A model generated the notes under the pieces. It was given only the letters and a program-made list of their open reading frames with translations. It searched no databases and was not told where the DNA came from. The translations under genes and the position numbers were made by a program. This document shows positions 2,230-32,538 of a stretch of 33,242 nt of DNA, piece after piece. The DNA comes from a bacterium (GTDB lineage Bacteria > Myxococcota_A > UBA9160 > SZUA-336), in NCBI GenBank assembly GCA_024226335.1, contig JAAELY010000228.1, positions 1-33,242 of the forward strand. The letters are read 5' to 3'. Positions within the stretch are counted from its first letter, which is position 1. Each line of letters begins with the position of its first letter.

Positions 2230-2400
2230 ACCCCCCCGCCTGCACTTCCTCGCTCGACGCGCCATCAATGAACGCTACGGGATCCTGCGTGCACTCCCGT
2301 GGTCATCCGCCGGTCTTCGTGGATCAGAGCTGAGATCCGAAACGGGAAGCGGATCGCGTAGCGGTAGAAGTCCTTTCCTTCACTGGAGTGCAAGGTGTTT
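2230..2400. other. rest of the 1981-2506 gap, no gene recognised
   Basis: Between the iterated repeats and the sulfatase promoter I see no recognisable gene. A short minus-strand reading frame (about 46 codons, containing GKDFYRYAIRFP) looks faintly protein-like but has no convincing start or family match, so I do not call it. Confidence 0.3.
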
Positions 2401-2420
2401 TCGAGATCAGATTATCAAAA

Positions 2421-2457
2421 TTTGGTCATAGACAAAATTTTAGCAATGATCGATATT
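2421..2457 (+). promoter_or_regulatory. promoter/operator copy 1, upstream of sulfatase
   Basis: The -35 TAGACA (2429-2434), 17-bp spacer and -10 GATATT (2452-2457) lie 50 bp before the sulfatase ATG. An imperfect inverted repeat TTTGGTCATAGACAAAA (2421-2437) overlaps the -35. The same module recurs before the carotenoid oxygenase (4899) and the nitroreductase operon (8350), including the spacer motif TTTAGCAATGATC. It is the most diverged copy. It probably binds the TetR protein encoded at 4163-4876; this is inference. Confidence 0.7.
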
Positions 2458-2506
2458 CGGCTCCACACCTTCAAAAGAGCCGCCGCCCCATCGAGGAGAC
2501 CCTGCC

Positions 2507-4090
2507 ATGACGAACGAGGCCTCTCTCACAAAGGCCGAGAGCCTGGCCCCTCGAGGCCATCCTCTCCTGCCATTCTGGATGGCGCTCGTTTCTCTGGTTG
2601 CGATGGCCGGCCCCGCCTCCACGCTGGCAGATTCCCACACACAATCCCCGCCCTCTGCCGGCGTGGCGGCGGCCGACCGCCGACCGAATATCCTGATCCT
2701 GCTGGCAGACGACCTCGGCTGGGGCGATGTCTCCTACCACGGCAGCGAGATTCGGACGCCGCATATCGACAACCTCGCGCGCAGGGGGATCGAACTCGAT
2801 CGCTTCTACGTCCAGCCGACCTGCAGCCCGACCCGAACTGCTCTGATGACAGGGAAGTCGCCGATGCGCATCGGGATCACGCGACCGATCACTAAGAATG
2901 AGAAAGGTGGCCTCCCGCTTGGCGAGACATTGCTGCCGGAACATCTCGCGCGAGCCGGCTATCAATCGCTGATGTCAGGCAAGTGGCATCTCGGCCATTA
3001 CACACCCGAGATGTTCCCCCACGCCCGGGGTTTCGAGTCCTTCTACGGTCATGTCAGCGGTGGCATCGGCTATTGGGATCACAACCACGGCGGGGGCCAC
3101 GATTGGCAACGCGATGGCGTAACCGTTCGAGAGGAGGGCTATACGACCCATCTGATCGCGGACGAAGCGCTGCGCCTGCTCACCACTCGCGACCGCACCC
3201 GCCCTGTATTCCTCTACGTCGCCTTCAACGCCCCGCACATTCCGAACGAATCGCCATCAGACGCGCTCGCTCGTTATGCGTCGATCGAAGACCAGAAGCG
3301 TCGCATTCACGCGGGCATGGTGAGCGAACTCGACTCCGCCATCGGCCGAATCCTCGCGGGCTTCGAAGAGGAAGGAATCCTCGGCAACACCCTCGTCTTC
3401 TTCTCGAGCGATAACGGCGGCATCGTCCCCGGAACCGGCCCCCCGGCACTCTTGAATGTCGCTCGTTTCTTCGACGCGATCTTCGACCGACCAATCCCCA
3501 TCCCAGGCTTCGAGTTCCTCGTCGCAAATCTACTCGACGGGGCGAGCGACAACGGCCGCTTGCGCGGCGCCAAGGGCGACCTCGGCGACGGTGGAAGCCG
3601 GGTCCCCGCAGCGATCTGGTGGCCCGGTCACCTCGAAAACGGAACCCATGAGCGTTTCATGACAATCTCCGACCTCCTCCCGACGCTGATGGAAGCGATC
3701 GGCGCAGCGGACGCGATTCCGGGTGATCTGAATGGCCGCAGCCAATGGGCGGCGCTGAACGGAGATCCCTCCAACAGCGAGACACCCGATTACGTCACGA
3801 CCGGCCTTTTCGGAGAAGCCGCGTTCTATCGCCCCCCCTGGAAACTCCACGTGACGGACCCGCCCGAACTCTACGACGTATTCGATGATCCCTACGAGGA
3901 GCGCAACGTCGCGGGCGAGAATCCGGAGGTCGTCGAGGCTCTATTGCAGGCCACAGAAGCCTGGCCTCGCGGAAGGGCCACCTCGGCGACCATCGCCGAT
4001 AGTTTTTTCGATCCGGACCTCTTTGGTGGTCGGGAGGATCGCGAGCCCTGGGCGGATGTCGCTCGAGAGCGGGCATCCCGCACGAATTGA
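2507..4090 (+). CDS. exported type I sulfatase (arylsulfatase family)
   Basis: A 527-residue formylglycine-dependent sulfatase hydrolysing a sulfate ester. Residues 1-42 hold a positively flavoured start and a hydrophobic stretch (FWMALVSLVAMAGPASTLA), consistent with a signal peptide and periplasmic or extracellular location. Metal-site motif ILLADDLGWGD (D68, D69) precedes the C-S-P-T-R signature at 106-110, where Cys106 is the residue converted to formylglycine. SGKWHLGH (157-164), NAPH (241-244) and SSDNGG (D302/N303) complete the active site. Length is typical. ATG at 2507 follows GGAGA. It stands alone behind promoter/operator copy 1, so it is probably co-induced with the oxygenase and monooxygenase operons. 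The substrate is unknown; an organosulfate of the compound degraded by the neighbouring genes is an inference. An anaerobic sulfatase-maturating enzyme or FGE must exist elsewhere. Confidence 0.93.
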   Translation: MTNEASLTKAESLAPRGHPLLPFWMALVSLVAMAGPASTLADSHTQSPPSAGVAAADRRPNILILLADDLGWGDVSYHGSEIRTPHIDNLARRGIELDRFYVQPTCSPTRTALMTGKSPMRIGITRPITKNEKGGLPLGETLLPEHLARAGYQSLMSGKWHLGHYTPEMFPHARGFESFYGHVSGGIGYWDHNHGGGHDWQRDGVTVREEGYTTHLIADEALRLLTTRDRTRPVFLYVAFNAPHIPNESPSDALARYASIEDQKRRIHAGMVSELDSAIGRILAGFEEEGILGNTLVFFSSDNGGIVPGTGPPALLNVARFFDAIFDRPIPIPGFEFLVANLLDGASDNGRLRGAKGDLGDGGSRVPAAIWWPGHLENGTHERFMTISDLLPTLMEAIGAADAIPGDLNGRSQWAALNGDPSNSETPDYVTTGLFGEAAFYRPPWKLHVTDPPELYDVFDDPYEERNVAGENPEVVEALLQATEAWPRGRATSATIADSFFDPDLFGGREDREPWADVARERASRTN

Positions 4091-4162: not shown

Positions 4163-4876
4163 TCACTTCAGACCTCTGACTTGCGCCTTGCGTCGGGCGG
4201 GCTTCGTCGAGCGCGCCTTGCGTAGTCGCGTCAGCTTTCCGATGAGCGCGGGGCGGAAGGTCTCCTCCGCGTCGGCAGCCAATCCGATGTAGGACGCCTG
4301 TAGCACGGTCTCGCGGAATTCCTCGATGGAGATCAGGCGAAACGCCCAGTCTCGCGAGGCAACGCGATAACTCGCGAAGATCCTCTCGCCGAGGATGTCG
4401 GGGGGGATCGAACCTCGCAGCTGCCCTTGCTCCTGAGCCGTCCGGCACGCCTCCGTCATGAGCGCGACGGCCCATCGGGTCAAGCCTCCCCTCTTTCCCC
4501 AGATCTTCTCCTGATCTGAGAAGAACTCGTTGGCCACGAACGCGGCACGGTAGAAGTCCTCTTCTGCGCTGAAGAGCGATGTGGATTCGTTCGCCACGGC
4601 CTCAAGCAGCGCCACGGCCTCAAGCAGCGCCACGGGCTCCGCCTCTGCGAACGCCTCCAGCCGGGCTTCGAGCGCGGCCATCGTCTCGGAGATCAGCATG
4701 AGGAGGATCTCTTCCTTGTTGCCGATCAGGTTGTAGAGAGTGGGCTGAGTGACCCCGGCTGCATCGGCCAGGGAGCGCATGTTCAAGCTCGGAAAGCCGC
4801 GCTCGGCGATCGTGCGCCGCGCTTCCGCCAGGATCCGCCTGCGGCGCTTTTCCATGTTGATCGCTCGTGTACTCAT
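4163..4876 (-). CDS. TetR/AcrR family repressor, likely controls the region 2 catabolic genes
   Basis: A 237-residue regulator. Residues 8-60 form a TetR DNA-binding domain: a basic N-terminus (MEKRRRRILAEA), RGFPSLNMRSLADAAGV and the recognition helix region TQPTLYNLIGNKEEILL. The C-terminal ligand domain is unremarkable except for a duplicated VALLEA segment created by an 18-bp tandem repeat at 4593-4628. I use the ATG at 4876; a GTG at 4888 and an ATG at 4855 are alternatives, and none has a clear ribosome-binding site. The gene is divergent from the carotenoid oxygenase, with operator copy 2 in between, so autoregulation is likely. The ligand is unknown. The first ~20 codons plus promoter are duplicated at 8281-8400. 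Confidence 0.9.
   Translation of the reverse strand: MSTRAINMEKRRRRILAEARRTIAERGFPSLNMRSLADAAGVTQPTLYNLIGNKEEILLMLISETMAALEARLEAFAEAEPVALLEAVALLEAVANESTSLFSAEEDFYRAAFVANEFFSDQEKIWGKRGGLTRWAVALMTEACRTAQEQGQLRGSIPPDILGERIFASYRVASRDWAFRLISIEEFRETVLQASYIGLAADAEETFRPALIGKLTRLRKARSTKPARRKAQVRGLK
4593..4635. repeat. 18-bp tandem duplication inside tetR
   Basis: GCCACGGCCTCAAGCAGC occurs twice head to tail (4593-4610, 4611-4628), followed by a partial third copy. It is in frame and inserts one extra VALLEA unit into the ligand-binding domain of the TetR protein. Confidence 0.85.
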
Positions 4877-4948
4877 TCGAGGTTTCACACTAGCAAATTT
4901 TAGTCATTGACAAAACTTTAGCAATGATAAATATTCTGGATCCAGAAG
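4830..4948. repeat. long duplication, copy A (tetR 5' end plus promoter)
   Basis: This ~119-bp segment covers the first codons of tetR, the divergent operator and the start of the carotenoid oxygenase leader. It aligns almost without gaps to 8281-8400, with high identity by eye. Identical stretches include GTCATTGACAAAACTTTAGCA. This copy is the likely original because it joins an intact tetR gene. Confidence 0.85.
4899..4935 (+). promoter_or_regulatory. promoter/operator copy 2, tetR/carotenoid oxygenase intergenic
   Basis: A canonical -35 TTGACA (4907-4912), exactly 17 bp, then -10 AATATT (4930-4935), 44 bp before the oxygenase ATG. The inverted repeat TTTAGTCA-T-TGACAAAA (4899-4915; 7 of 8 positions symmetric) covers the -35. 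A bound TetR dimer here would block RNA polymerase and could also repress the divergent tetR gene. Nearly identical to copy 3 at 8350. Confidence 0.8.
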
Positions 4949-4978
4949 ACGCCCTCAACCAATCCAGGAGAACCTTCC

Positions 4979-6394
4979 ATGCTAATCGAAATCGACTATC
5001 TGTCCGAGGCCATGCGGCCAGATCCTGTTGAGTCGGACTACACCATCACCAAGATCGAAGGTGAAATCCCCCGGGAACTGAACGGGACCCTCTACCGCAA
5101 TTGCCCAAACCAGAAGACCTCGCCAAAGGCCGGTCCTGGCGTATTGCATATGTTCGACGGTGACGGTTTTGTCAGTGCTTGGCGTTTCGAAGACGGCAAG
5201 GCCCGTTATCGCAGCCGCCACCCTCGCACGGAGAGCTTCCTGCGCGAGCAGGAGGAGGGCGAATACTGTCTCGGCGGACTCAACGTTGGGCCAGACCGCG
5301 CGCTACGGAATCCGCCGCCGAACTATCAGGCCAACACCAACGCCGTCTACCACGCCGGTCGGCTTTGGGCAATGCATGAAACCATGCCACCCTTCTTCAT
5401 GGATCCGGACACCCTCGAGTCGAAGGGCATCTGGGATTACGATGGCAAGATGCTCGGAATGGCGTCTGGTGCCCATCCATGTATCGACGTGAGAACGGGC
5501 CAGATGTTCCAATGTGGCTACCAACCCATGGCACCCTTCCTGCAGCTCTACGTTGTGGAGGCCGACGGAAAGGTCTCTCTGGCAGAAGCGGTCGATACCC
5601 CCTGGGCTGGCAAGATCCACGACATTGCGATTACCGAGAACTACATCATCGTCCCGCTCGGAGCCGTCGACATCAGCTACGAGAACCCGGACAGGAATGA
5701 TCCTCTTGGGGGCCTGAAGGCACTACGGGCACGGCCCGACCTGAACTTGCGGTTCGGCATCCGCAAGCGCGAGCCGGGTAGTCCCATGCAGTGGTTCGAG
5801 GTCCCCGACAGTCACTACATTCTGCACGTCGGAAATGCCTTCGAACGGGATGGGAAAATCATCATGGATGCCCCCGCTTGGGAGAATCCGACTGCCTTTG
5901 TCGAAACTATCAAGCACCTTCGCGAAGGCAAAGTCGATCCGGACGCAGCACACTGTCATCCCCGCGTCTACGAGTTCGACCTGGCCACTGGGACCTGCAA
6001 AGGGACCAAAGTGAGCGACATGTTTGCTGAGCTAAACCGGTTTGATGATCGCCTGATGGGATACGAGAATCGGTATGGCTACGCTTCGGTGGGGAGACCG
6101 GGCGAGGGAATATTCCGAAGTGTTGGAAAATACGATCGCTCGGGCGGGCCGATGGCGATCCAGGACGCTGTGGAAGGCAATTTTGTCGGCGAGCCCATCT
6201 TCGTTCCTCGTAGTCAGGACGCAGCCGAGGACGATGGTTTTGTCATCGCCTTGCGCCACGATGGACCCAACGATCGTACAGGCCTCGACATCCTGGACGC
6301 ACGGGGTGTAGACAAGGAACCGCTGGCGCGTCTATGGCTGGATCACCGAGTTCCGTTCAGCCCCCATGGTTGCTGGCGGCCCGAAGGCACTTAG
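4979..6394 (+). CDS. carotenoid cleavage oxygenase / lignostilbene dioxygenase family
   Basis: A 471-residue non-haem iron dioxygenase of the RPE65/CCD superfamily, which cleaves C=C double bonds of carotenoids, apocarotenoids, stilbenes or related phenylpropenes. The N-terminus shows IEGEIPRELNGTLYRNCPN and HMFDGDG, typical of the family. The four iron-binding histidines of the beta-propeller can be placed at H166 (GAHPCID), H214 (KIHDIAIT), H283 (ILHVGNAFE) and H463 (FSPHGCW). Length is typical. ATG at 4979 follows AGGAGA. No signal peptide, so cytoplasmic. It is transcribed from promoter/operator copy 2 and faces the FAD oxidoreductase across an IS remnant. Substrate cannot be read from sequence; bacterial relatives include both stilbene and carotenoid cleavers. 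The C-terminus ends just after the last histidine, so minor 3' loss by the IS insertion is possible. Confidence 0.9.
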   Translation: MLIEIDYLSEAMRPDPVESDYTITKIEGEIPRELNGTLYRNCPNQKTSPKAGPGVLHMFDGDGFVSAWRFEDGKARYRSRHPRTESFLREQEEGEYCLGGLNVGPDRALRNPPPNYQANTNAVYHAGRLWAMHETMPPFFMDPDTLESKGIWDYDGKMLGMASGAHPCIDVRTGQMFQCGYQPMAPFLQLYVVEADGKVSLAEAVDTPWAGKIHDIAITENYIIVPLGAVDISYENPDRNDPLGGLKALRARPDLNLRFGIRKREPGSPMQWFEVPDSHYILHVGNAFERDGKIIMDAPAWENPTAFVETIKHLREGKVDPDAAHCHPRVYEFDLATGTCKGTKVSDMFAELNRFDDRLMGYENRYGYASVGRPGEGIFRSVGKYDRSGGPMAIQDAVEGNFVGEPIFVPRSQDAAEDDGFVIALRHDGPNDRTGLDILDARGVDKEPLARLWLDHRVPFSPHGCWRPEGT

Positions 6395-6444
6395 TAGTTC
6401 TGGGATCTTGGCTTGAACCTCATGCCGCTTCCCTCTGCACCTGC

Positions 6445-6476
6445 CTCACGCCCGCTGCGTACGCAGCGGGCGTGAG
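6445..6476. repeat. 32-bp perfect palindrome between convergent genes
   Basis: Two 16-bp arms (CTCACGCCCGCTGCGT and its exact complement) meet without a spacer. It lies between the ends of the carotenoid oxygenase and the FAD oxidoreductase, next to an IS remnant. It could form a strong hairpin acting as a bidirectional terminator, although no T-tract follows, or be part of an IS end. Confidence 0.75.
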
Positions 6477-6488
6477 CTGACCCATCGC

Positions 6489-6584
6489 CTAACGAGTGAA
6501 ATCGTCGATCACGGTGAGGACTCGGAGCTGCCGTCCGTCGATCGTCTGATCGGCGACGAAGTCGTAGCTCCAGACGTGGTTCAG
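6489..6584 (-). pseudogene. IS3-family transposase (OrfB) remnant
   Basis: The minus strand encodes NHVWSYDFVADQ followed by a stretch ending LTVIDDFTR and a stop. This is the opening of the rve/integrase core of IS3-family OrfB, in which the Asp of WSYDF is the first catalytic residue. Only about 31 codons remain; the rest of the element and both terminal repeats are not recognisable. It begins within the stop codon of the FAD oxidoreductase gene, whose last codons may have been altered by the insertion. Confidence 0.8.
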
Positions 6585-8242
6585 TGACTCTCCCGCCAGG
6601 CGTCCCAGTCGGGGCGGAGCTCGGGTAGCGCATCCCGGTCTCCCATCGTCTCGCCGGCGAGAGCGGGCGTGAGGAGGTCTGATTCGAGCACCTCCCCCGC
6701 TGCGAGCACACCGCCGCGTAGTACTCCCATGACTCCCCCACCCGAGGGTGTGCTGGCGCCGCACAGGAACAAGCCCTCGATCTCCGTGCGCGGCCCGACC
6801 CGCATCGGGACCGGTGCCTCGATTCCGTTGGCGGTGCCTCCGGTGGAGTGTGTAAAGCGTTCCTGGCTCACCGGTGTCGCCGCTTCCTTCCAGACGATGT
6901 GCTCCCGGATGTCCGGGATCAGCTGCAGATTCGTGTCGATCATCTGCTCCACGAACTCGCTCTTGCGTTTTTTGTACTCCGCGTCGCGGTGATAGCGTCC
7001 GCCATCAGCGGGGCCCCGGTCCACGTTCCACACCCCGTAGTCCCGCGGCGCGAGGGTCATGATCTGCAGGTTCGTGTGCCCCTCCGGTGCCAGGTGCTGG
7101 CTCACCGGGTCCATCGTGGTGGCGGTGGTCAGCATGGTCATCTTGGCGTTCAGCCGCCCAGCATCGAGTTTGTCGTACACGCCCTCGATGTCGTAGTCGC
7201 CCCAGGTGTAGTGGTTGCTGTTGGGCATGCCGCGTTCCGCGAGGTCCACGTCGAGGCCGAGATACACACTGACGAGAGGTAAGGACATCTTGAGGGCTCG
7301 GATGTACTCAGCGGTTTCTTCGCCGAAGTGCTCCTCGCCGACCAGCTCGAAAACAGTTCGTTTCAGGTCGGCATTCGAGACGACCACCGGCGCATCGATC
7401 TCCTGCTCGTGACGCCCCTTCTGTCCGACGACCACCCCGCGCACGTGACCTCCCTCGACGCGGATCTTCTGCACCGGGCTCTTCGTGCGCACTTCGCCGC
7501 CGTAGGCTCGGATCGCTTCGATCAGCCGGCCGGCGATTACCTGGCCTCCACCCACCGGGTAGTAGGCTCCGCGCAGAAAGTAGTCGATGAAACCGGCCGC
7601 CATGACCACCGGGGTTTCCGAAGGCCGCACGGCGTAGGTAGCCTGCTCGCCAAGCAGCACAGCCTGCGCGCGCTCTCCGAGCCGATGCTCCGCGAAGAGC
7701 TCCGTCACGGGCCGGAGCCCCCACGGCAGGAAGCCGGGTGCCCGCTCGGCCAGCTGCGCCAGTTCGAGTTCGCCCCGTTGCATGCGGCGACCGGCCTGGG
7801 ATACCCCGTGCATCACGTCGAGCACCGCGTCCAGCGCCTCGCGCTCGCGGGGAAAGGTCTCGTGTAGGCGGGCCCGGTAACGGTCCCAGCCGAACGGAAT
7901 TCGGAACTCGAGATCGGGAAAGTGGAGGGTGGTGTAGCCGTCGGAGTCGAGGGGACGGAAGACCACGCGCTCAGCGAGGCCGACTCCGTTCAGTACAGCG
8001 GTGATCATGCCATCACGCCCGCACTCCCCGATATAGTGGACGCCGACGTCGAACTCAAATTTCCTGCCCTGGTGGTCGCGACGGAACGCATGGGAATTCC
8101 CCCCCGCCACGTAGTGGGCTTCGAGGACCAGAGTTCGCTTGCCCGCGGCGCATAGGTAGGCGGCGGTGGACAGACCGCCGAGTCCCGAGCCGACGACGAT
8201 GGCATCCCATTGCTCGCGTTCGTCCGGGGTCGCGTCGCTCAT
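6581..8242 (-). CDS. phytoene desaturase/CrtISO-like FAD-dependent oxidoreductase
   Basis: A 553-residue NAD(P)/FAD-dependent oxidoreductase of the phytoene desaturase, carotenoid isomerase and retinol saturase group (COG1233). It has the N-terminal dinucleotide-binding motif GSGLGG (18-23) with acidic residue E41 ending the second beta-strand (LVLEAHYVAGGNS). It also has an internal PVGGGQVIAGRLIEAI, and the C-terminal FAD-binding signature LFLCGASTPSGGGVMGVLRGG. Members saturate, desaturate or isomerise conjugated polyenes or similar hydrophobic substrates. ATG at 8242 follows GGAGAA. It is divergent from the nitroreductase operon and convergent with the carotenoid oxygenase. Its own promoter is unclear, because the conserved promoter motif upstream points the other way. 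The tail runs directly into the IS3 remnant, so the native C-terminus may be altered. Co-occurrence with a carotenoid-oxygenase-family enzyme hints at a polyene or stilbenoid substrate. Confidence 0.88.
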   Translation of the reverse strand: MSDATPDEREQWDAIVVGSGLGGLSTAAYLCAAGKRTLVLEAHYVAGGNSHAFRRDHQGRKFEFDVGVHYIGECGRDGMITAVLNGVGLAERVVFRPLDSDGYTTLHFPDLEFRIPFGWDRYRARLHETFPREREALDAVLDVMHGVSQAGRRMQRGELELAQLAERAPGFLPWGLRPVTELFAEHRLGERAQAVLLGEQATYAVRPSETPVVMAAGFIDYFLRGAYYPVGGGQVIAGRLIEAIRAYGGEVRTKSPVQKIRVEGGHVRGVVVGQKGRHEQEIDAPVVVSNADLKRTVFELVGEEHFGEETAEYIRALKMSLPLVSVYLGLDVDLAERGMPNSNHYTWGDYDIEGVYDKLDAGRLNAKMTMLTTATTMDPVSQHLAPEGHTNLQIMTLAPRDYGVWNVDRGPADGGRYHRDAEYKKRKSEFVEQMIDTNLQLIPDIREHIVWKEAATPVSQERFTHSTGGTANGIEAPVPMRVGPRTEIEGLFLCGASTPSGGGVMGVLRGGVLAAGEVLESDLLTPALAGETMGDRDALPELRPDWDAWRESH

Positions 8243-8280
8243 CGTGAATTCTCCATTCGTTCGGTTGAAGGGGCGGGGCC

Positions 8281-8400
8281 AGGATCCGCTTGGCGCGCTT
8301 CTCCATGTTCATCGTTCGTGTACTCGTTCGGAATTTCACATTAGCAAAATTTAGTCATTGACAAAACTTTAGCATAGATCAATATTCTGGAATTCAGAAG
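8281..8400. repeat. long duplication, copy B (tetR 5' fragment plus promoter)
   Basis: The counterpart of 4830-4948. Read on the minus strand it still encodes TRTMNMEKRAKRILA, the N-terminus of the TetR protein, but the start ATG corresponding to 4876 is ACG and the frame leaves homology after about 23 codons, so it is not a gene. On the plus strand the transferred promoter now drives the nitroreductase operon. This is direct evidence of regulon growth by copying a promoter/operator. Confidence 0.85.
8350..8386 (+). promoter_or_regulatory. promoter/operator copy 3, nitroreductase-monooxygenase operon
   Basis: -35 TTGACA (8358-8363), 17-bp spacer, -10 AATATT (8381-8386), 31 bp before the nitroreductase ATG. 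The inverted repeat TTTAGTCATTGACAAAA at 8350-8366 is identical to copy 2. It is predicted to place the five downstream genes under the same TetR repressor as the oxygenase. Confidence 0.8.
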
Positions 8401-8416
8401 AAAGGAGTTTCCAACG

Positions 8417-8869
8417 ATGAGTAATCCCCAAGGTCTGCCGCCGGAGATCGTCGAGCACATCCGCTTGTATCGAGAAGACCCGGAGAAAGCACACCACTGG
8501 GATTCGACGCCGTTGGGCGGACCCGGTGTCCTGACCACCCTGCTGCTCACCACCCGCGGACGCAAATCGGGCGAGCCGCGGTCGCTGCCACTCGTCTATC
8601 AGCAGGTGAACAAGTGCTTCGTCGTCGTGGCCTCGAAGAAGGGATCACCGGCCCACCCTGCTTGGTACCTGAATCTGCAGGCACGACCCGAGTGCGAAAT
8701 CCAGGTGGGCAACGAGCACTACCGCGTGCGCGCCCGCGATGCCGAGGGCGAAGAGCGCGGGCGGTTGTGGGGTGTCGTGACTGCGGCATATCCGCCCTAC
8801 GACGAATACCAGACAGCTGCCGGGAAACGACGCATTCCTGTGGTGGTACTCGACCCCATCGACGAGTGA
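8417..8869 (+). CDS. F420-dependent nitroreductase (Ddn) family protein
   Basis: A 150-residue split-beta-barrel protein of the deazaflavin-dependent nitroreductase family (formerly DUF385). Visible signatures are LLTTRGRKSGEPRSLPL near residue 45, VVASKKGSPAHPAWYLNL around 75-90, and ARPECEIQVG. Characterised relatives use reduced F420 to reduce quinones, nitro groups or conjugated double bonds. F420 use here is inferred from family membership. ATG at 8417 follows AAAGGAG at ideal spacing. It is the first gene of an operon running through the flavin monooxygenase, CoA-transferase, hydrolase and VOC genes, directly behind promoter/operator copy 3. It could supply a reduction step or protect against quinones formed by the ring-oxidising enzymes. 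Confidence 0.88.
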   Translation: MSNPQGLPPEIVEHIRLYREDPEKAHHWDSTPLGGPGVLTTLLLTTRGRKSGEPRSLPLVYQQVNKCFVVVASKKGSPAHPAWYLNLQARPECEIQVGNEHYRVRARDAEGEERGRLWGVVTAAYPPYDEYQTAAGKRRIPVVVLDPIDE

Positions 8870-8920: not shown

Positions 8921-10117
8921 ATGACTGCATTTGGATTTTCTGACTGGATGAAGAGGGCCGAAGAAGTCTCCCCACTGGTTGCCGCCGAGGCGGACGAAGC
9001 GGAGAGCCTGCGACACATGACCGATCGAACGGTTGAAGCGTTCAAGGAATCGGAGCTCTACTACCTCACGCTTCCGCAAGAGCTCGGAGGTCCCGATCTC
9101 CCTCTTGTCGAGTCACTGGAGGTTCTCGAGAAGGTCTCCGAGGCAGATGGCGCCGCCGGTTGGTGCCTCTTCGTCGGCAATATCGAGGTCGGGACAGCGG
9201 GAGCGTACCTGGCCGACGCCGGGATCGAGACCGTCTTCACCAAGCCAAAGGACTTGCTGATCTCCGGGCAGGGGATCCCGAACGGTGTGGCCCGACCCGT
9301 CGACGGGGGCTACCGCATCGACGGGGATTGGAAGTACGGCAGCGGCATCCATCACGCCGACTACATCCACAACGGCTGTATCGTGCTCGATGAGGATGGG
9401 AATCCCCGGATGACGGACGCGGGGAAGCGCGAGATCAGGATCTGCCTCACCGAACGCAAGCACGCCGAAATCAAGGACGACTGGCACGTGCTCGGCCTGT
9501 GTGCCACGGGCAGTTTCGATTACTCGATCCGTGACGTATTCGTCCCGACGGAGATGACGCACGACTTCGCAACGACGAAGCCGCATCGCGGCAGCTACCA
9601 GTTCACGCTGGGGTTGACCGGATACACCACCTGGGGACACACGGGTTTCGCTCTGGGCGTCGGACGTCACGCGCTCGACGAGCTGAAGAAGCTCGCGCAG
9701 ACCAAGGAGAACCCGTTTGGACTGCTCGGCGATGGCGAGAGCTTCCAAGTACGCTACGCACATGCCGAGGGCAGCCTGCGGGCCGCGCGAGCCTTCTGCT
9801 ATTCGGCTTGGGACGATCTGTGCGAATCGATGGCGAGGCAAGAGCCCGCAAGCCTCGATCAAATCGCACTGATCCGTCTCGCGATGTCCAATGTACACGA
9901 TGTAGTGTCTGATATCACCACGTTCGCCCACATTGCGGGGGGAGGCGTCTCGCTTCGCCACAGCCCTCTCCAGCGCTGCTACCGCGACATGCACGCGGGT
10001 ACGCAGCACATCCTGTTGGCCGACCAGATCCGGCAGGATACGGCGAAGGTGTTGTTGGAGATGGCGCCCGAGAATGCTCGATGGTCCCCTCTCGGCCTCG
10101 AGGCGCCTTCCGCGTAA
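8921..10117 (+). CDS. class D flavin monooxygenase (HsaA/acyl-CoA dehydrogenase-fold hydroxylase)
   Basis: A 398-residue protein with acyl-CoA dehydrogenase fold resembling two-component flavin hydroxylases such as HsaA, DszC and pigment-biosynthesis hydroxylases, rather than true dehydrogenases. Evidence: [14 protein letters not shown] near residue 80, [21 protein letters not shown] (substrate loop region) around 127-147, [16 protein letters not shown], and a C-terminal helical part with [26 protein letters not shown], where a His in RDMHAGTQH matches the family's conserved region. Such enzymes ortho-hydroxylate phenols using FADH2/FMNH2 delivered by a separate reductase. No reductase gene is adjacent, which is notable. 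ATG at 8921 follows AAGGAG. It sits in the nitroreductase operon and fits a ring-hydroxylating step before the dioxygenase and CoA-transferase. Confidence 0.88.
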
Positions 10118-10142: not shown

Positions 10143-11492
10143 ATGAAACGAGTTCCCCAGATCTCACCCGAGCGGGCCGCGGCCATGGTCGAAACGGGTG
10201 ACACGATCCTGGTCGGCGGATTCGGCATGACCGGACATCCGGTCCATCTGCTTCACGCACTTGCCGAGACCGGTGTTCGGGACCTGACGTACGTCGCCAA
10301 CAATGTGGGTGAAGTCGGACTCGGCGGCGGTCGGCTCCTGAGCAAGGGGCAGATCAAGAAGGCGATCGGCTCGTTTTTCACAAGCAACCGCGAGGCAGTG
10401 GCGGCCGCGCAGCACGGGAGCATGGAGATCGAGCTTCTTCCCCAGGGATCGCTTGCCGAGGCGCTGCGCGCGGGCGGCGCCGGAATCGGGGGCTTCTTCA
10501 CTCCGGCTTCGGCGGGCACCGTCATCGGAGAGGGAAGGGAGACGAGGATCTTCGATGGAAAGCCGCAGGTGTTCGTACCGGGCCTTCGCGGCGACGTAGC
10601 CTTCATCCGGGCTTGGAAGGCGGATACCGCCGGCAACCTGGTCTACCGGATGACCGAACAGAACTTCAACAAGGCGATGGCGACGGCGGCTGATCTGGTC
10701 ATCGCCGAGGTGGAGACGATCGTTCCGGTGGGCGAAATCGCCCCCAACGAGGTTCACACGCCGGGTTGTTATGTGGATCGTCTGGTTGAAGCGCGCATGA
10801 CCCTGGACGACCTCGGGTCTTCTGCGTCGGTGGCATCCAGCGCAAGAAAGGTTGACCCGCTGCGGATGAACATGGCGCACCGCGCGTTGGCGGAGCTGAA
10901 AAGCGGGGACGTGGTGAATCTGGGGATTGGGATTCCCACCCTCGTGGCAGACCTGATCACTCCCGAACGCGGGATCGTCCTTCATACGGAGAACGGAATG
11001 CTCGGCGTCGGCCCCGCGCCAGCGGAGGGCGGCGCGATGGAGTACCCCGTGAACGCCGGGAAGGTCCCGGTTACGGCGCTGCCGGGAACCAGCTACTTCG
11101 ACAGCGCGGATTCGTTCGCCATGATTCGCGGTGGCCACGTGGATATTGCGATCATGGGCGGGCTGCAGGTGGACGAAGCCGCGAACCTCGCGAACTGGGC
11201 GGTTCCCGGCAAGCCGCTATTGGGGGTGGGCGGTGCGATGGATCTCGGCTCGGGAGCCAAGCGGCTCATCATCACAATGACTCACACCAACTCCGACGGG
11301 AGCCCGAAGCTGGTTCCACAGTGCGACCTGCCGCTCACGAGTCGGAACGCGGTGGACCTGGTGATCACGGATCTTGCGGTCTTCTCGTTTGCTCCGGGCG
11401 ATCTCACGCTGGTCGAGCTGATGCCTGGGGCAAACCTGGAACAGGTGAGATCCGCGACCTCGGCGAAGTTCGTCGAGAGGTTGCCGGGTTGA
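10143..11492 (+). CDS. 3-oxoacid CoA-transferase, fused A and B subunits
   Basis: A 449-residue succinyl-CoA:3-ketoacid-type CoA-transferase in which both subunits are joined. Residues 1-~235 form the A part ([28 protein letters not shown]). Residues ~240-449 form the B part ([15 protein letters not shown]), with the catalytic glutamate E283 in the motif TENGMLGVG that forms the glutamyl-CoA intermediate. I use the ATG at 10143 because it follows GGAAGG and begins the family's N-terminus; the frame is open further upstream inside the monooxygenase gene, but that extension is not conserved-looking. The enzyme activates a 3-oxo acid (acetoacetate, 3-oxoadipate or a larger analogue) for thiolysis. 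Its place in the operon after ring hydroxylation argues for a 3-oxoadipate-like intermediate, but specificity cannot be read. Confidence 0.92.
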
Positions 11493-11556: not shown

Positions 11557-12282
11557 ATGCTGGAACGCGAAGTAGACATCAAGCGTGCCGACGGTGACAT
11601 GAACACCTTCATCACACATCCAGAAGAAGGTGGACCCTATCCGGTCGTGCTGTTCTACATGGATGCGCCCGGAAAGCGGGAAGAGCTGCACGACATGGCT
11701 CGCCGGATCGCCACCACGGGGTACTACGTGATGCTGCCGAATCTCTATTACCGCCGGACCCGGGCGTTCACGATGCCCCCGGGCTCCGAAGAGGAGATGT
11801 TCGAGCACATGGACTCGCTCTCGATCCAGATGGTGAACGAGGATACCTCAGCCATGCTCGAGCACGCGGCGGGCGACGGCCACGCCGCGGACGGTCCGGT
11901 CGGCGCGCTGGGCTACTGCATGAGCGGGCCCTTCGCCTTTGCTGCGGCCGCTGCGTTTCCCGATCGGATCGCCGCTTCAGCATCGCTGCACGGTGTGCGC
12001 CTGTGTACCGAAGCGGATGACTCGCCTCATCGTGACGCGAACAAGATCAACGGCGAACTCTACTTCGGTTGCGCGGAAACGGACGAGTGGGCACCCAAGG
12101 AGATGATCGACGAACTCGATGCCCACCTTGCAACGACCGGCGTCAACTACCGGATCGAATGGTACCCGGATACCACGCACGGCTTCGTCTTTCCGCAGCG
12201 TGGAGAGATGATCTACCACAAGGAAGCAGCCGAACGGCACTGGGAGCGGCTGTTCTCCCTGTTCCAACGGAATCTGACGTGA
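11557..12282 (+). CDS. dienelactone hydrolase family protein
   Basis: A 241-residue alpha/beta hydrolase of the dienelactone hydrolase family. The nucleophile elbow is GYCMSG with Cys121 as nucleophile (cysteine is characteristic of true dienelactone hydrolases), with D176 (AETDEW) and H208 (DTTHGF) completing the triad. The N-terminal FITHPEEGGPYPVVLFYMDA and late FVFPQR are also typical. No signal peptide. ATG at 11557 follows AGGCGAG. Dienelactone hydrolases open lactones formed during aromatic ring catabolism; some relatives act on other small esters. It sits between the CoA-transferase and the VOC dioxygenase, so a lower-pathway role in aromatic degradation is likely. Confidence 0.92.
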   Translation: MLEREVDIKRADGDMNTFITHPEEGGPYPVVLFYMDAPGKREELHDMARRIATTGYYVMLPNLYYRRTRAFTMPPGSEEEMFEHMDSLSIQMVNEDTSAMLEHAAGDGHAADGPVGALGYCMSGPFAFAAAAAFPDRIAASASLHGVRLCTEADDSPHRDANKINGELYFGCAETDEWAPKEMIDELDAHLATTGVNYRIEWYPDTTHGFVFPQRGEMIYHKEAAERHWERLFSLFQRNLT

Positions 12283-12351: not shown

Positions 12352-12897
12352 ATGCAACTCCGCTTCTCACATAACGCGATCAAAGTCCGCGACCTTGCTG
12401 TCATGCTCGACTTCTATGAGAACGTCCTCGGATTTCAGGTAACGGATCGCGGCCCCCTCCCGCGGCCCGGATCGCCGGAGATCGTCTTCCTCAGCCAGGT
12501 GGCGAGTGACCATCATCAGCTCGCCTTTGTCGACGTGCCACAGGACAGCGACGTGCCCGATACGCTCCTCCATATGGCCTTCCGCGTGTCGTCGATCACG
12601 GACGTCCGGGAGATGATCAAGCGGCTCGAAGAGGACGGGCTGGCGACCGATGTCGAGACCGTCACGCATGGCAACGCCTGGTCGGTCTACTTCAGAGACC
12701 CGGAGTTCAACCGTATCGAGGTGTTCTGTGACACGCCGTGGTACGTCCCGCAGCCCATCGTCGTGCCCTGGGACCCCGAAATGAGCGATCGGGAACTGTT
12801 CGAGCACACTGAAAAGCTCTTCTCGAACGAGCCGGGTTTCGGTCCGATGGAGGAGTGGACAGCCGCGCAGGCGGAGAAGGTCGGCGAAGAGACCTGA
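12352..12897 (+). CDS. VOC-family extradiol dioxygenase-like protein
   Basis: A 181-residue glyoxalase/bleomycin-resistance/extradiol dioxygenase (vicinal oxygen chelate) protein. Two beta-alpha-beta-beta-beta modules are visible: FSHNAIKVRDLAVMLDFYENVLGF and, later, LHMAFRVSSITDVREMIKRL through VYFRDPEFNRIEVFCDTPWYV. Metal ligands can be placed at H7, H74 and E123, matching the 2-His-1-carboxylate set of single-domain extradiol dioxygenases. GGAGGG precedes the ATG at 12352. It is the last clear gene of the operon behind promoter/operator copy 3. Ring cleavage of a catechol-type intermediate is the simplest role, but related VOC proteins catalyse isomerisation or epimerisation. Confidence 0.85.
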   Translation: MQLRFSHNAIKVRDLAVMLDFYENVLGFQVTDRGPLPRPGSPEIVFLSQVASDHHQLAFVDVPQDSDVPDTLLHMAFRVSSITDVREMIKRLEEDGLATDVETVTHGNAWSVYFRDPEFNRIEVFCDTPWYVPQPIVVPWDPEMSDRELFEHTEKLFSNEPGFGPMEEWTAAQAEKVGEET

Positions 12898-13093: not shown

Positions 13094-13284
13094 CGATCCT
13101 GGACCAGGAGCCCGACCCAAGATGGACGGCGACGCCCAGACGCCTCTGCATCGCCGCCGCCGGCATTGCGCTCACTCAGGGAATCTACGGATTCGACCTC
13201 GATCGCGCGCCTTGGCGGCGACGCGCAGGGACGCCTGGCTCGCCGCCAGACATCTTGGGTCAGGCTCCTAGGTGTGGGTTCTAA
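13090..13284 (+). CDS. small hypothetical ORF, possibly a detached leader of the cytochrome
   Basis: Its ATG overlaps the stop of the preceding frame (ATGA). It encodes 64 residues with a short hydrophobic stretch (LCIAAAGIALTQGIYGF) after two arginines, signal-peptide-like but with no clear cleavage site. The next frame encodes a c-type cytochrome lacking a signal sequence. The two might once have been one exported cytochrome broken by a frameshift. No family recognised. Confidence 0.35.
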   Translation: MTILDQEPDPRWTATPRRLCIAAAGIALTQGIYGFDLDRAPWRRRAGTPGSPPDILGQAPRCGF

Positions 13285-15988: not shown

Positions 15989-17419
15989 TTGCTTCGCTCA
16001 GTCGATCTCGTTTTCAGCCCGCAAACTCCCGCCCGTATAGCCGCTGCCATCGTTTCCGTGATCGGACTGCTCGCCAGTGCGACAGCAGCCAACGCTGTGG
16101 ATCACTTTCGCGTCTACCCCAATGCCGCCGCTGTCGGACTCGATGGCCCGATCGTCCAGATCGACGACCAATTCGGCAGCCAGACGACCGACCTCCAGAG
16201 CCCAATTCGCTTCATGGTCCCCGCCGCCAAAAACGGCGAGGGCTTGCTCGATCCCTTCAGTCACCTCACCTGCTATCAGATCCTAGACGGCGTCGCTGGC
16301 CCCGCGGTAATTTCGACGAACCAATTCGGGGCTCAGCCGTTGACGCTGGGTATGCCAGACTCGCTCTGTGTCCCGACCGAGAAACTGATTGCTCCCGGGC
16401 CGGTGAATATCGATCACTACAAGTGTTACCTCGCGAGCGGTTCGTCGATCGATACTGGCGTTTCCATCCAGGATCAGTTCGGTCAGAGCTCCGCAATCGT
16501 CTTGAATCCTCGACTCTTCTGCACTCCGGCCGCGAAGAACGGGGAGGTCGTCATCGACGATGTAACGCACCTGACGTGCTACGACACGACGCCACCGGGT
16601 CCGGCGCCGGGGGCCATCCCGATCCTGAACCAATTCCTGCCCGCAGCGGATCTTCTCCAATTGCAGGAAGCCGACATGCTGTGCGCTCCATCGACGAAGG
16701 AGGTCGTGGAACCGGAGCCAGACCACTATCAAAGCTACCCGACAGTGCCGGTCGTTGGCTCCGACGGACCCATCGTCACGATCGACGATCAATTCGGTTC
16801 ACAGACAACCGACCTCGGTGACGTTGTCAGCTTTTGGGTCCCGGCCGACAAGAATGATGAAGGAATCGACGACCCGTTCAGCCACCTGACGTGCTACGAC
16901 ATCGTCGACGGTTTTGCGGGCCCGCCCGTCATCGCCACGAATCAGTTCGGCGCCCAGCCGCTGGTGCTCGGCGCGCCTCACTCCCTCTGTGTCCCGACGG
17001 AGAAGTTGATCTTTCCAGGGCAGGTCGATGTCGATCACTACAAGTGCTACTTGGCGACGGGCGCGCCAATCGATGTCGGAGTCAGCATCGCGGACCAGTT
17101 CCAGGGGCGCACGACACTTCTTCTGGAACCCAACCTCTTCTGCACCCCGGCCAGCAAGAACGGCGAAGGGATCGACGACGCCGATACACACATGACCTGT
17201 TACTCGACGAATCCAGCAGGGGCGCCTCCGGGACTGATCCCGATCTTGAACCAGTTCCTGGCCGGGTCCGAGCAGATCGACCTGCTCGGACCCGATTTCC
17301 TTTGTGCCCCTTCGACCAAGGAAGTGGTCTTACAAGTACCGGTTTTCCCCGCGCTAGGTGCGGGCGTGCTCATATTGGTGATGATGGGAGCCGCCTTCAC
17401 AAGAGCGCGCCGGTTGTAG
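15989..17419 (+). CDS. secreted tandem-repeat protein with C-terminal sorting-type anchor
   Basis: A 476-residue secreted protein. The start is a TTG at 15989 with GGAGGA eight bases upstream; no ATG is available. Residues 1-36 form a signal peptide ending ANA. Two ~205-residue repeats (38-~240 and 245-~447) each contain two cysteine-bearing sub-modules with the sequence order DGPIVxIDDQFGSQTTDL, DPFSHLTCY, TNQFGAQPLxLG, SLCVPTEKL, DHYKCYLA, LFCTPAxKNGE, IPILNQFL and LCAPSTKEV. The tail (about 452-476) has a VPVFPALG motif, a hydrophobic helix and a basic end (TRARRL), the tripartite plan of PEP-CTERM/IPTL-CTERM-like sorting signals. The repeat family is not one whose function I know. It is likely a surface protein. 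It ends 5 bp from the convergent DUF1566 gene. Confidence 0.8.
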   Translation: MLRSVDLVFSPQTPARIAAAIVSVIGLLASATAANAVDHFRVYPNAAAVGLDGPIVQIDDQFGSQTTDLQSPIRFMVPAAKNGEGLLDPFSHLTCYQILDGVAGPAVISTNQFGAQPLTLGMPDSLCVPTEKLIAPGPVNIDHYKCYLASGSSIDTGVSIQDQFGQSSAIVLNPRLFCTPAAKNGEVVIDDVTHLTCYDTTPPGPAPGAIPILNQFLPAADLLQLQEADMLCAPSTKEVVEPEPDHYQSYPTVPVVGSDGPIVTIDDQFGSQTTDLGDVVSFWVPADKNDEGIDDPFSHLTCYDIVDGFAGPPVIATNQFGAQPLVLGAPHSLCVPTEKLIFPGQVDVDHYKCYLATGAPIDVGVSIADQFQGRTTLLLEPNLFCTPASKNGEGIDDADTHMTCYSTNPAGAPPGLIPILNQFLAGSEQIDLLGPDFLCAPSTKEVVLQVPVFPALGAGVLILVMMGAAFTRARRL

Positions 17420-31460: not shown

Positions 31461-32150
31461 GTGCCCTCCCTCCCGGCCGGCGAGATCCAGGTCGAGCAGT
31501 ACGCACCCCAAACCCCGCACGTCGAGACGGTCGCAAAGGTCTACGCCGAGATCCCGATCCCGAAGCTCGGGATCTTCCTCGCTCGATCGCGGATGGGACT
31601 GAGGCCGTCCGAGGCAAGACGGCTAGACGTCTCCGACCTGAAGCTCGGACAGGGCGGAGGTATCGCCGGAGCCTACCTACTGATCCCCGCACGGAAGAGC
31701 AAGAAGAAGCGCTACCGGATGCTCAACGTGCCGGAAGATCTAGCAGCTTGGTTCAGCCATCCCGAGGTGGTGACCGCCTTCGAGCAGATCTCTCGACGGT
31801 TCGGCCGGGAGCCTCTTTTCCGGAATCCGAACGGCTACGGCGACGGCCGCTGGAAAGAGACCAGTGAGAAGCGCGCGCTAGCAAAGGCGTTCCAGGCAGC
31901 CGGCGTCGAGCCGATCCGGCCGAACGAGATGGGCCGCCAATTCTTCGCGACCGAGCAGGTGAACGCCGGAGAGAGCATCTACGCAGTGAAGGCGCTCCTA
32001 GGACACTCGGACATCAAGAACACCGAGCGCTATGCGAAGCTGCGCCCCCAGAAAATCGCGGCCAGCGGAGCGAAAGTAACACCGATCGGGATAGGGGCGA
32101 AAGTCGATAACGGCCCCCCAGCGGCCCCCAGCAGTAAAAACGAGGAGTAG
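31461..32150 (+). pseudogene. tyrosine recombinase (integrase), catalytic domain only, beside ssrA
   Basis: A 229-codon frame beginning at GTG 31461 just after an in-frame TGA. It is the catalytic domain of a phage-type integrase: Arg I R48 (MGLRPSEARRLDVSD), lysine beta-hairpin (ARKSKKKR, about 79-82), box II PNEMGRQFFAT with R159 but Asn155 where His is usual, LLGHSDIKNTERYAKL with H182 and nucleophile Y191. The N-terminal SAM-like/core-binding domain (about 150 residues) is missing. The frame one base over upstream (VAFTPRRVFAIPLAARP) may be its frameshifted continuation. It ends 24 bp before the tmRNA 3' end, the typical site for island integrases. Probably inactive. Confidence 0.8.
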
Positions 32151-32174: not shown

Positions 32175-32538
32175 TGGTGGAGGCGGCGGGAATCGAACCC
32201 GCGTCCGCATAGCTTCTTTCGCCCGCGTCTACGTGTGTAGCCCCGTGTTTAGTTTTAGCGCGCCGTCTGGCCCCGGCACCCGCCTAACGACGCGCGAGTC
32301 GGGAGTTTTCTCGTCCGCATCCCCCCGACGTGGAGTTGGACCAGCCCGATGAATATGACACCCCCGCAGCTCATCGCGCGTCGGCTGCGGGCGTGCTCAC
32401 TGTACTTAGGGATTAACTAAGCAGCGAGAGCGAAGTTTTCGTCGGCAACTAAAATTGCCTTGCCGCAAGTTTTACGAGGACACAGCACCTCGACACGCAA
32501 CGGACGACGTCGACCACCCGTCGAAACCGATCGCCCCC
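32175..32538 (-). ncRNA. ssrA: transfer-messenger RNA (tmRNA)
   Basis: The 5' end GGGGGCGATCGGTTTCGACG and the 3' end with T-arm CGGGTTCGATTCCCG and encoded CCA form the tRNA-like domain; the 7-bp acceptor stem pairs with one G-U. The tag reading frame at 32417-32446 encodes ADENFALAA then TAG. The resume codon GCC is placed directly after TTAGTT, which corresponds to the conserved UAGUC upstream of the E. coli resume codon. With the charged alanine the tag is AADENFALAA, ending in the usual ALAA protease signal. About 364 nt, normal for one-piece tmRNA. It rescues stalled ribosomes with SmpB. Its 3' end is the insertion target of the neighbouring recombinase. Confidence 0.97.

Follow-up and report, generated by a model that had tools for sequence, protein, structure and literature searches.

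Copies of a tetR-operator-promoter block at three promoters of one bacterial gene cluster: a probable local TetR regulon

Three copies of a tetR-operator-promoter block fall within 6 kb of the window, which is the whole analysed stretch of 33,242 nucleotides. They are best explained, with a probability of roughly two in three, by a local TetR regulon that came to include three promoters as a unit of tetR, operator and promoter was duplicated; the spare tetR genes would then have decayed, and a regulator at a CrtI-like gene would have been lost. The elements of the copies are listed below.

4827..4949, copy A: tetR 5' end, operator, divergent promoters and leader of the RPE65-like gene; 86% identity to 8278-8401
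8278..8401, copy B: dead tetR 5' end, operator, promoter and leader
2407..2458, copy C: operator and promoter, ahead of the sulfatase gene (2507)
4895..4919, operator dyad A: AAATTTTAGTCATTGACAAAACTTT
8346..8370, operator dyad B: AAAATTTAGTCATTGACAAAACTTT
2417..2441, operator dyad C: AAAATTTGGTCATAGACAAAATTTT
4907..4935, + strand, predicted promoter A, towards the RPE65-like gene: TTGACA-17-AATATT, overlapping the dyad
4897..4924, - strand, predicted tetR promoter A: TTGCTA-16-TAAAAT, overlapping the dyad
8358..8386, + strand, predicted promoter B, towards the nitroreductase operon: TTGACA-17-AATATT
2429..2457, + strand, predicted promoter C, towards the sulfatase: TAGACA-17-GATATT
4163..4876, - strand, tetR: TetR-family repressor of ~237 amino acids (PF00440 TetR_N, E 1e-10)
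8278..8327, - strand, tetR relic of copy B: codons 1-17, the first of which reads ACG (8327-8325)
2352..2403, - strand, internal tetR relic beside copy C: 38/52 identical to tetR

Local alignment of copy A with copy B resulted in 86.3% identity over 124 columns with one gap of one base, and E 6e-35 was obtained by self-blastn. An earlier note had described a duplication of about 120 bp between 4830-4948 and 8281-8400, and the alignment ends (4827-4949 and 8278-8401) agree with this within 3 bp. The likeness covers tetR codons, operator and leader and not the operator core alone, as described there; operator and leader of A and B are 86-90% alike. A third copy had been missed. Copy C, upstream of the sulfatase, was 82-85% identical to A and B over 52 bp in the self-comparison, and past it a weaker likeness to the leader of A continues through the Shine-Dalgarno region to the sulfatase ATG (about 2509). 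No block copies beyond A, B and C were found in a search of the whole draft genome (5.75 Mb in 556 contigs). The genes downstream of these homologous promoter segments (RPE65-like, nitroreductase-like and sulfatase) are non-homologous. Because the copies are 14% apart, the copying is an old event with surviving traces and not a recent one; the description of a regulon expansion caught in the act was thus too strong.

A perfect dyad of 25 bp, AAAnTTTnGTCnnnGACnAAAnTTT, is present in all three copies and is placed on a sigma-70-like promoter. No other site with up to two mismatches was detected in the 5.75-Mb genome, and the number of matches expected from shuffles was 0. A match with three mismatches at 32433 overlaps the tmRNA gene and was taken as chance, as a control pattern also yielded one. 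All 18 dyad positions are invariant among A, B and C, and the four variable positions all lie within the seven non-symmetric ones (P=0.0028). Confinement of variation to non-symmetric positions is the pattern expected from selection by a symmetric DNA-binding dimer. The operator is conserved under selection after copying, as judged from this comparison of the three copies, and it is mainly because the variable positions avoid the dyad symmetry that the copies are thought to be functional. The dyad was absent from the examined loci of relatives, even if four mismatches were allowed, and no common operator was found upstream of the TetR relatives (40% identity).

The TetR_N helix-turn-helix domain of the intact TetR was recognized by PF00440 with 41.7 bits (cut-off 24). 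The gene starts with ATG at 4876-4874, with an in-frame GTG at 4888, and no second intact gene of its kind exists in the genome, where the next best match reaches 30%. In copy B this start codon is ACG and the frame is dead, as reported before. The match of the tetR frame ends after 17 codons counted from the ATG, or 21 counted from the upstream GTG, so that the previous figure of codons 1-20 fits neither count. Past these 17 codons no trace of tetR sequence of the same family was found at B. Seven base changes separate the relic from tetR, six of which are non-synonymous, the lost start included. Since an arginine pair (RR), in which the intact TetR agrees with all relatives listed, is replaced by RA in the relic, and since the start is lost, B is regarded as the derived, decayed copy.

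A further piece of tetR is preserved beside copy C. It is in frame and in tetR orientation, and reads ENTLHSSEGKDFYRYAI vs ESTSLFSAEEDFYRAAF of the intact TetR (codons 101-117). Its score of 38/52 compares with a maximum of 31 across 560 control segments of the window. The relic is collinear with 4538-4589 if about 295 bp, the N-terminal part of tetR, were deleted. Because copy C keeps this internal piece, it arrived with, or had acquired, a longer tetR. By analogy, B may likewise derive from a unit longer than 120 bp. For the earlier claim of a segmental duplication of about 120 bp this means that copying of more than the operator core stands, whereas at least at C the duplicated unit was longer. 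In the same way, a remnant of a separate full tetR, named before as a finding that would speak against the duplication, was not seen at 8281, where the adjoining relic belongs to a different tetR family, but was seen at copy C.

Exactly three rightward operator-linked promoters were recovered in a promoter scan. Dyad A overlaps the -35 element of the RPE65-like gene as well as the tetR promoter. Autoregulated TetR repressors with a divergent target gene usually show this arrangement. The idea that the copied promoter now drives the nitroreductase operon is supported insofar as TTGACA-17-AATATT is intact in B and points at 8417; it is a promoter predicted from its motifs. On the tetR side, the promoter of B is weaker by consensus (best 8/12, with poor spacing) than that of A (9/12). 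For this reason it is uncertain whether the CrtI-like gene would be controlled from copy B.

The following genes lie behind the promoters and beside the copies.

2507..4090, + strand, sulfatase (PF00884, E 2e-58)
4979..6394, + strand, RPE65-type gene, carotenoid / lignostilbene cleavage oxygenase-like (PF03055, E 1e-102)
6581..8242, - strand, CrtI / carotenoid-isomerase-like FAD oxidoreductase (PF01593), with the tetR side of copy B upstream
8243..8264, - strand, probable relic of the 3' end of another TetR-family gene, comprising the stop and the ~7 codons before it, 20/22 identical to locus L074
8417..12897, + strand, run of five genes downstream of copy B, with gaps of 25-69 bp
8417-8869, + strand, F420H2-dependent nitroreductase type
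8921-10117, + strand, HsaA/HpaB-like monooxygenase of the acyl-CoA-dehydrogenase fold
10143-11492, + strand, fused CoA-transferase A+B
11557-12282, + strand, dienelactone hydrolase
12352-12897, + strand, glyoxalase-fold protein

The gene set suggests catabolism of a sulfated aromatic or terpenoid compound. As the matches mostly identify a family and stay below the NCBIfam equivalog cut-offs, no substrate is claimed. The sulfatase start (2507-2580) apparently is the ATG that matches the start of the RPE65-like gene in the copied leader, which adds about 9 residues ahead of the start of its nearest relative (L115, 77%); a translational fusion with copy C is possible. Upstream of L115 neither tetR nor the block is present.

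Several other features of the window were observed. Between the convergent RPE65-like and CrtI-like genes, the stretch 6395-6590 holds a transposase fragment of the IS3 type (rve, VWSYDFVADQTIDGRQLRVLTVIDDFTR), adjoined by a perfect palindrome of 32 bp (6445-6476) without a second copy in the genome. Transfer of the block by an insertion sequence was considered; the stretch with the IS3-type remnant has no other copy in the genome, so that it could not be linked to the block. The remnant lies 1.7 kb away, and flanking repeats at the copies were not seen by eye. Downstream of the glyoxalase-fold gene, an imperfect inverted repeat (13106-13269) has arms of 29 bp, 83% alike and 106 bp apart, and is possibly a terminator or a small element. 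Two direct repeats of about 570 bp (68%) at 16141-17328 lie inside one ORF (15989-17419) and show a four-fold inner period of about 306 bp; the ORF encodes an internally duplicated, apparently secreted protein. The tmRNA gene (32175-32538, tag ADENFALAA) adjoins an integrase-like ORF (31461-32150), an arrangement that would suit an integration site.

On the CrtI side of copy B, the sequence points to a displaced regulator. The best NCBIfam matches of the CrtI-like gene are carot_isom and crtI_fam, both below cut-off, and its start lies 35 bp from the tetR relic of B. The nearest relatives in the class are found in L074 (84% at the protein and 85% at the DNA level) and L075 (75%). In both loci a different TetR-family gene (PF13305 TetR_C_33) is located on the strand of CrtI and overlaps the CrtI start by 4-8 bp. 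An overlapping gene of this type is also present in L077, L060 and L061, and L062 has one close upstream; in total, six of the 14 CrtI homologue loci examined carry a TetR_C_33-type gene at the CrtI start. In the window, the 22 bp at 8243-8264 encode ERMENSR* in the corresponding frame (ERMEKPR* in L074), and none of 1000 shuffles matched L074 as well. Against L075 the match of these 22 bp was not beyond chance in the shuffles. Only 13 bp separate this tail of the other tetR from the tetR head of copy B. Elsewhere in the genome, one TetR_C_33-type regulator is retained, which is 46% identical to that of L074. As the nearest relatives carry an unrelated TetR gene at this position and 22 bp matching its 3' end remain, copy B looks like a regulator replacement at CrtI, besides the gain by the nitroreductase operon. 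The tetR relic of B also opens an out-of-frame ORF of 94 codons (8055-8339, with GTG at 8339 and inner ATGs), which reaches across the start of the CrtI-like gene and might serve it as an upstream ORF.

Comparable results were obtained for the RPE65-like gene. Its homologues (54-58% for most) have a TetR_C_33-type gene directly upstream in eight of nine informative loci. The gene of the window has only the divergent tetR there and no TetR_C_33-type gene directly upstream. No TetR relative exceeds 41% identity, and among the loci checked not one was found beside RPE65. A TetR_C_33-type gene on the same strand directly upstream of both CrtI-like and RPE65-like genes is a recurrent pairing with a cis-encoded regulator across the class (L074, L075, L077, L060-L062, L072, L073, L081-L083, L086 and L087).

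Homologues of the nitroreductase were detected in 49 of the 379 genomes searched. The same operon was found in none of the fetched homologue loci, where the homologues sit in other contexts. No relative with the whole gene order of the window was found, nor was an empty site seen on the nitroreductase side; a true empty site for B is missing there because there is no relative of the same genus. Regarding loci without the second copy, with which the earlier note had proposed a comparison, CrtI, RPE65 and sulfatase homologues indeed lack the dyad or the block, whereas no syntenic nitroreductase operon was found.

From these observations the following course of events can be proposed. The intact tetR (4163-4876) most likely represses itself and the RPE65-like gene via the 25-bp dyad overlapping both promoters. 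One copy of the unit (C) would have landed upstream of the sulfatase, and another (B) in the interval that separates the CrtI-like gene from the nitroreductase operon. Their tetR parts would then have decayed or been deleted, while the dyad was presumably kept by selection, so that the three promoters may now answer to a single TetR acting in trans. At B, the resident TetR_C_33-type gene was probably lost, by which the CrtI-like gene would have changed its regulator, and the nitroreductase operon would have acquired the same promoter on the other side of the copy. We infer that tetR and operator were copied together as a unit, and that A, or else a close paralogue, gave rise to B and C. Binding of the dyad by TetR and activity of the promoters are likewise deduced from the DNA sequence. 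The simplest reading is that this TetR replaced local regulators at the RPE65-like and CrtI-like genes and gained the sulfatase and nitroreductase promoters. Whether the locus may be read as a regulator swap, with TetR taking over the RPE65-like and CrtI-like genes by transplantation of the tetR-operator unit while relatives keep a cis-encoded regulator of the TetR_C_33 type, we consider evenly balanced.

Copying of the tetR-operator unit with later loss of the spare tetR is preferred over copying of 120 bp, because C came with a longer tetR. In the shorter alternative, a segment of about 124 bp would have been copied directly from 4827-4949 to 8278 by illegitimate recombination or template switching, and a full tetR would never have been present there. 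For B alone, one short insertion replacing the resident gene suffices, and the similarity at B indeed ends after 17 codons, only 13 bp from the relic of the other tetR. However, as tetR codons ~101-117 are retained at C, the 5' end cannot have been all of tetR that moved in at least one sister copy, and no insertion signature was seen at B. Direct copying of the short segment is thus considered less likely than not. Assembly of the cluster from several sources, in which B and C would stem from separate members of one tetR-operator family that had been acquired horizontally and not from copy A, is unlikely. It would agree with the strongly conserved N-terminal arm of the TetR family (79% DNA identity over 47 bp in genome G046), with the best CrtI relative belonging to another family of the class and with the IS3-type transposase remnant between RPE65 and CrtI. 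Against it, operator and leader of A and B are closely alike, yet not even the dyad occurs in any fetched relative.

It is still less probable that the dyad serves another regulator and that the neighbourhood of tetR is incidental. TetR relatives at 40% identity lack the dyad upstream, and binding of the dyad by this TetR is itself predicted from sequence; but the dyad sits in the tetR promoter and occurs only at these three sites in the genome, and tetR relics of the same orientation persist at two of the three copies. Chance similarity or an assembly artefact has a negligible probability: the assembly is a draft in many contigs, but the E-value for A and B and the absence of dyad matches expected in shuffles argue against chance, and a difference of 14% between the copies is not that of a misassembled repeat.

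As copying events get erased, the way in which bacterial regulons gain targets usually has to be deduced from how binding sites have spread. In the locus described here the vehicle, namely tetR pieces around the operator, is still visible at both daughter sites, and selection on the operator alone is measurable. Thus, these 6 kb make spread of a site by copying, and not by point mutation, directly testable.

The arrangement at copy A corresponds to a divergent autoregulated TetR repressor, as the intact tetR is divergent from an enzyme gene and the dyad lies over both promoters. The difference consists in two extra promoters with the same operator and dead pieces of tetR. Promoter copying and regulon expansion are already known. 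Mobile promoters and promoter propagation were reported for prokaryotes (Matus-Garcia et al. 2012; van Passel et al. 2014, as cited in PMC5906472 and PMC9208149), and PMC5906472 calls it prevalent that existing promoters are copied. As in those cases, a short promoter segment was copied ahead of other genes; here, in contrast, the segment bears an operator and relics of the repressor gene, and it occurs within 6 kb only and not as a dispersed repeat. Regulon expansion is well described, and one of the routes by which regulators gain target operons is duplication of regulator and target (PMC4052901). The regulators of the LacI family in that study also acquired new target operons. Their expansion was inferred from the distribution of sites across genomes, whereas here the DNA that carried the site and the apparently displaced regulator can be read. 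It is this legibility that stands out, with the vehicle, the selected site and the probable displaced regulator within 6 kb.
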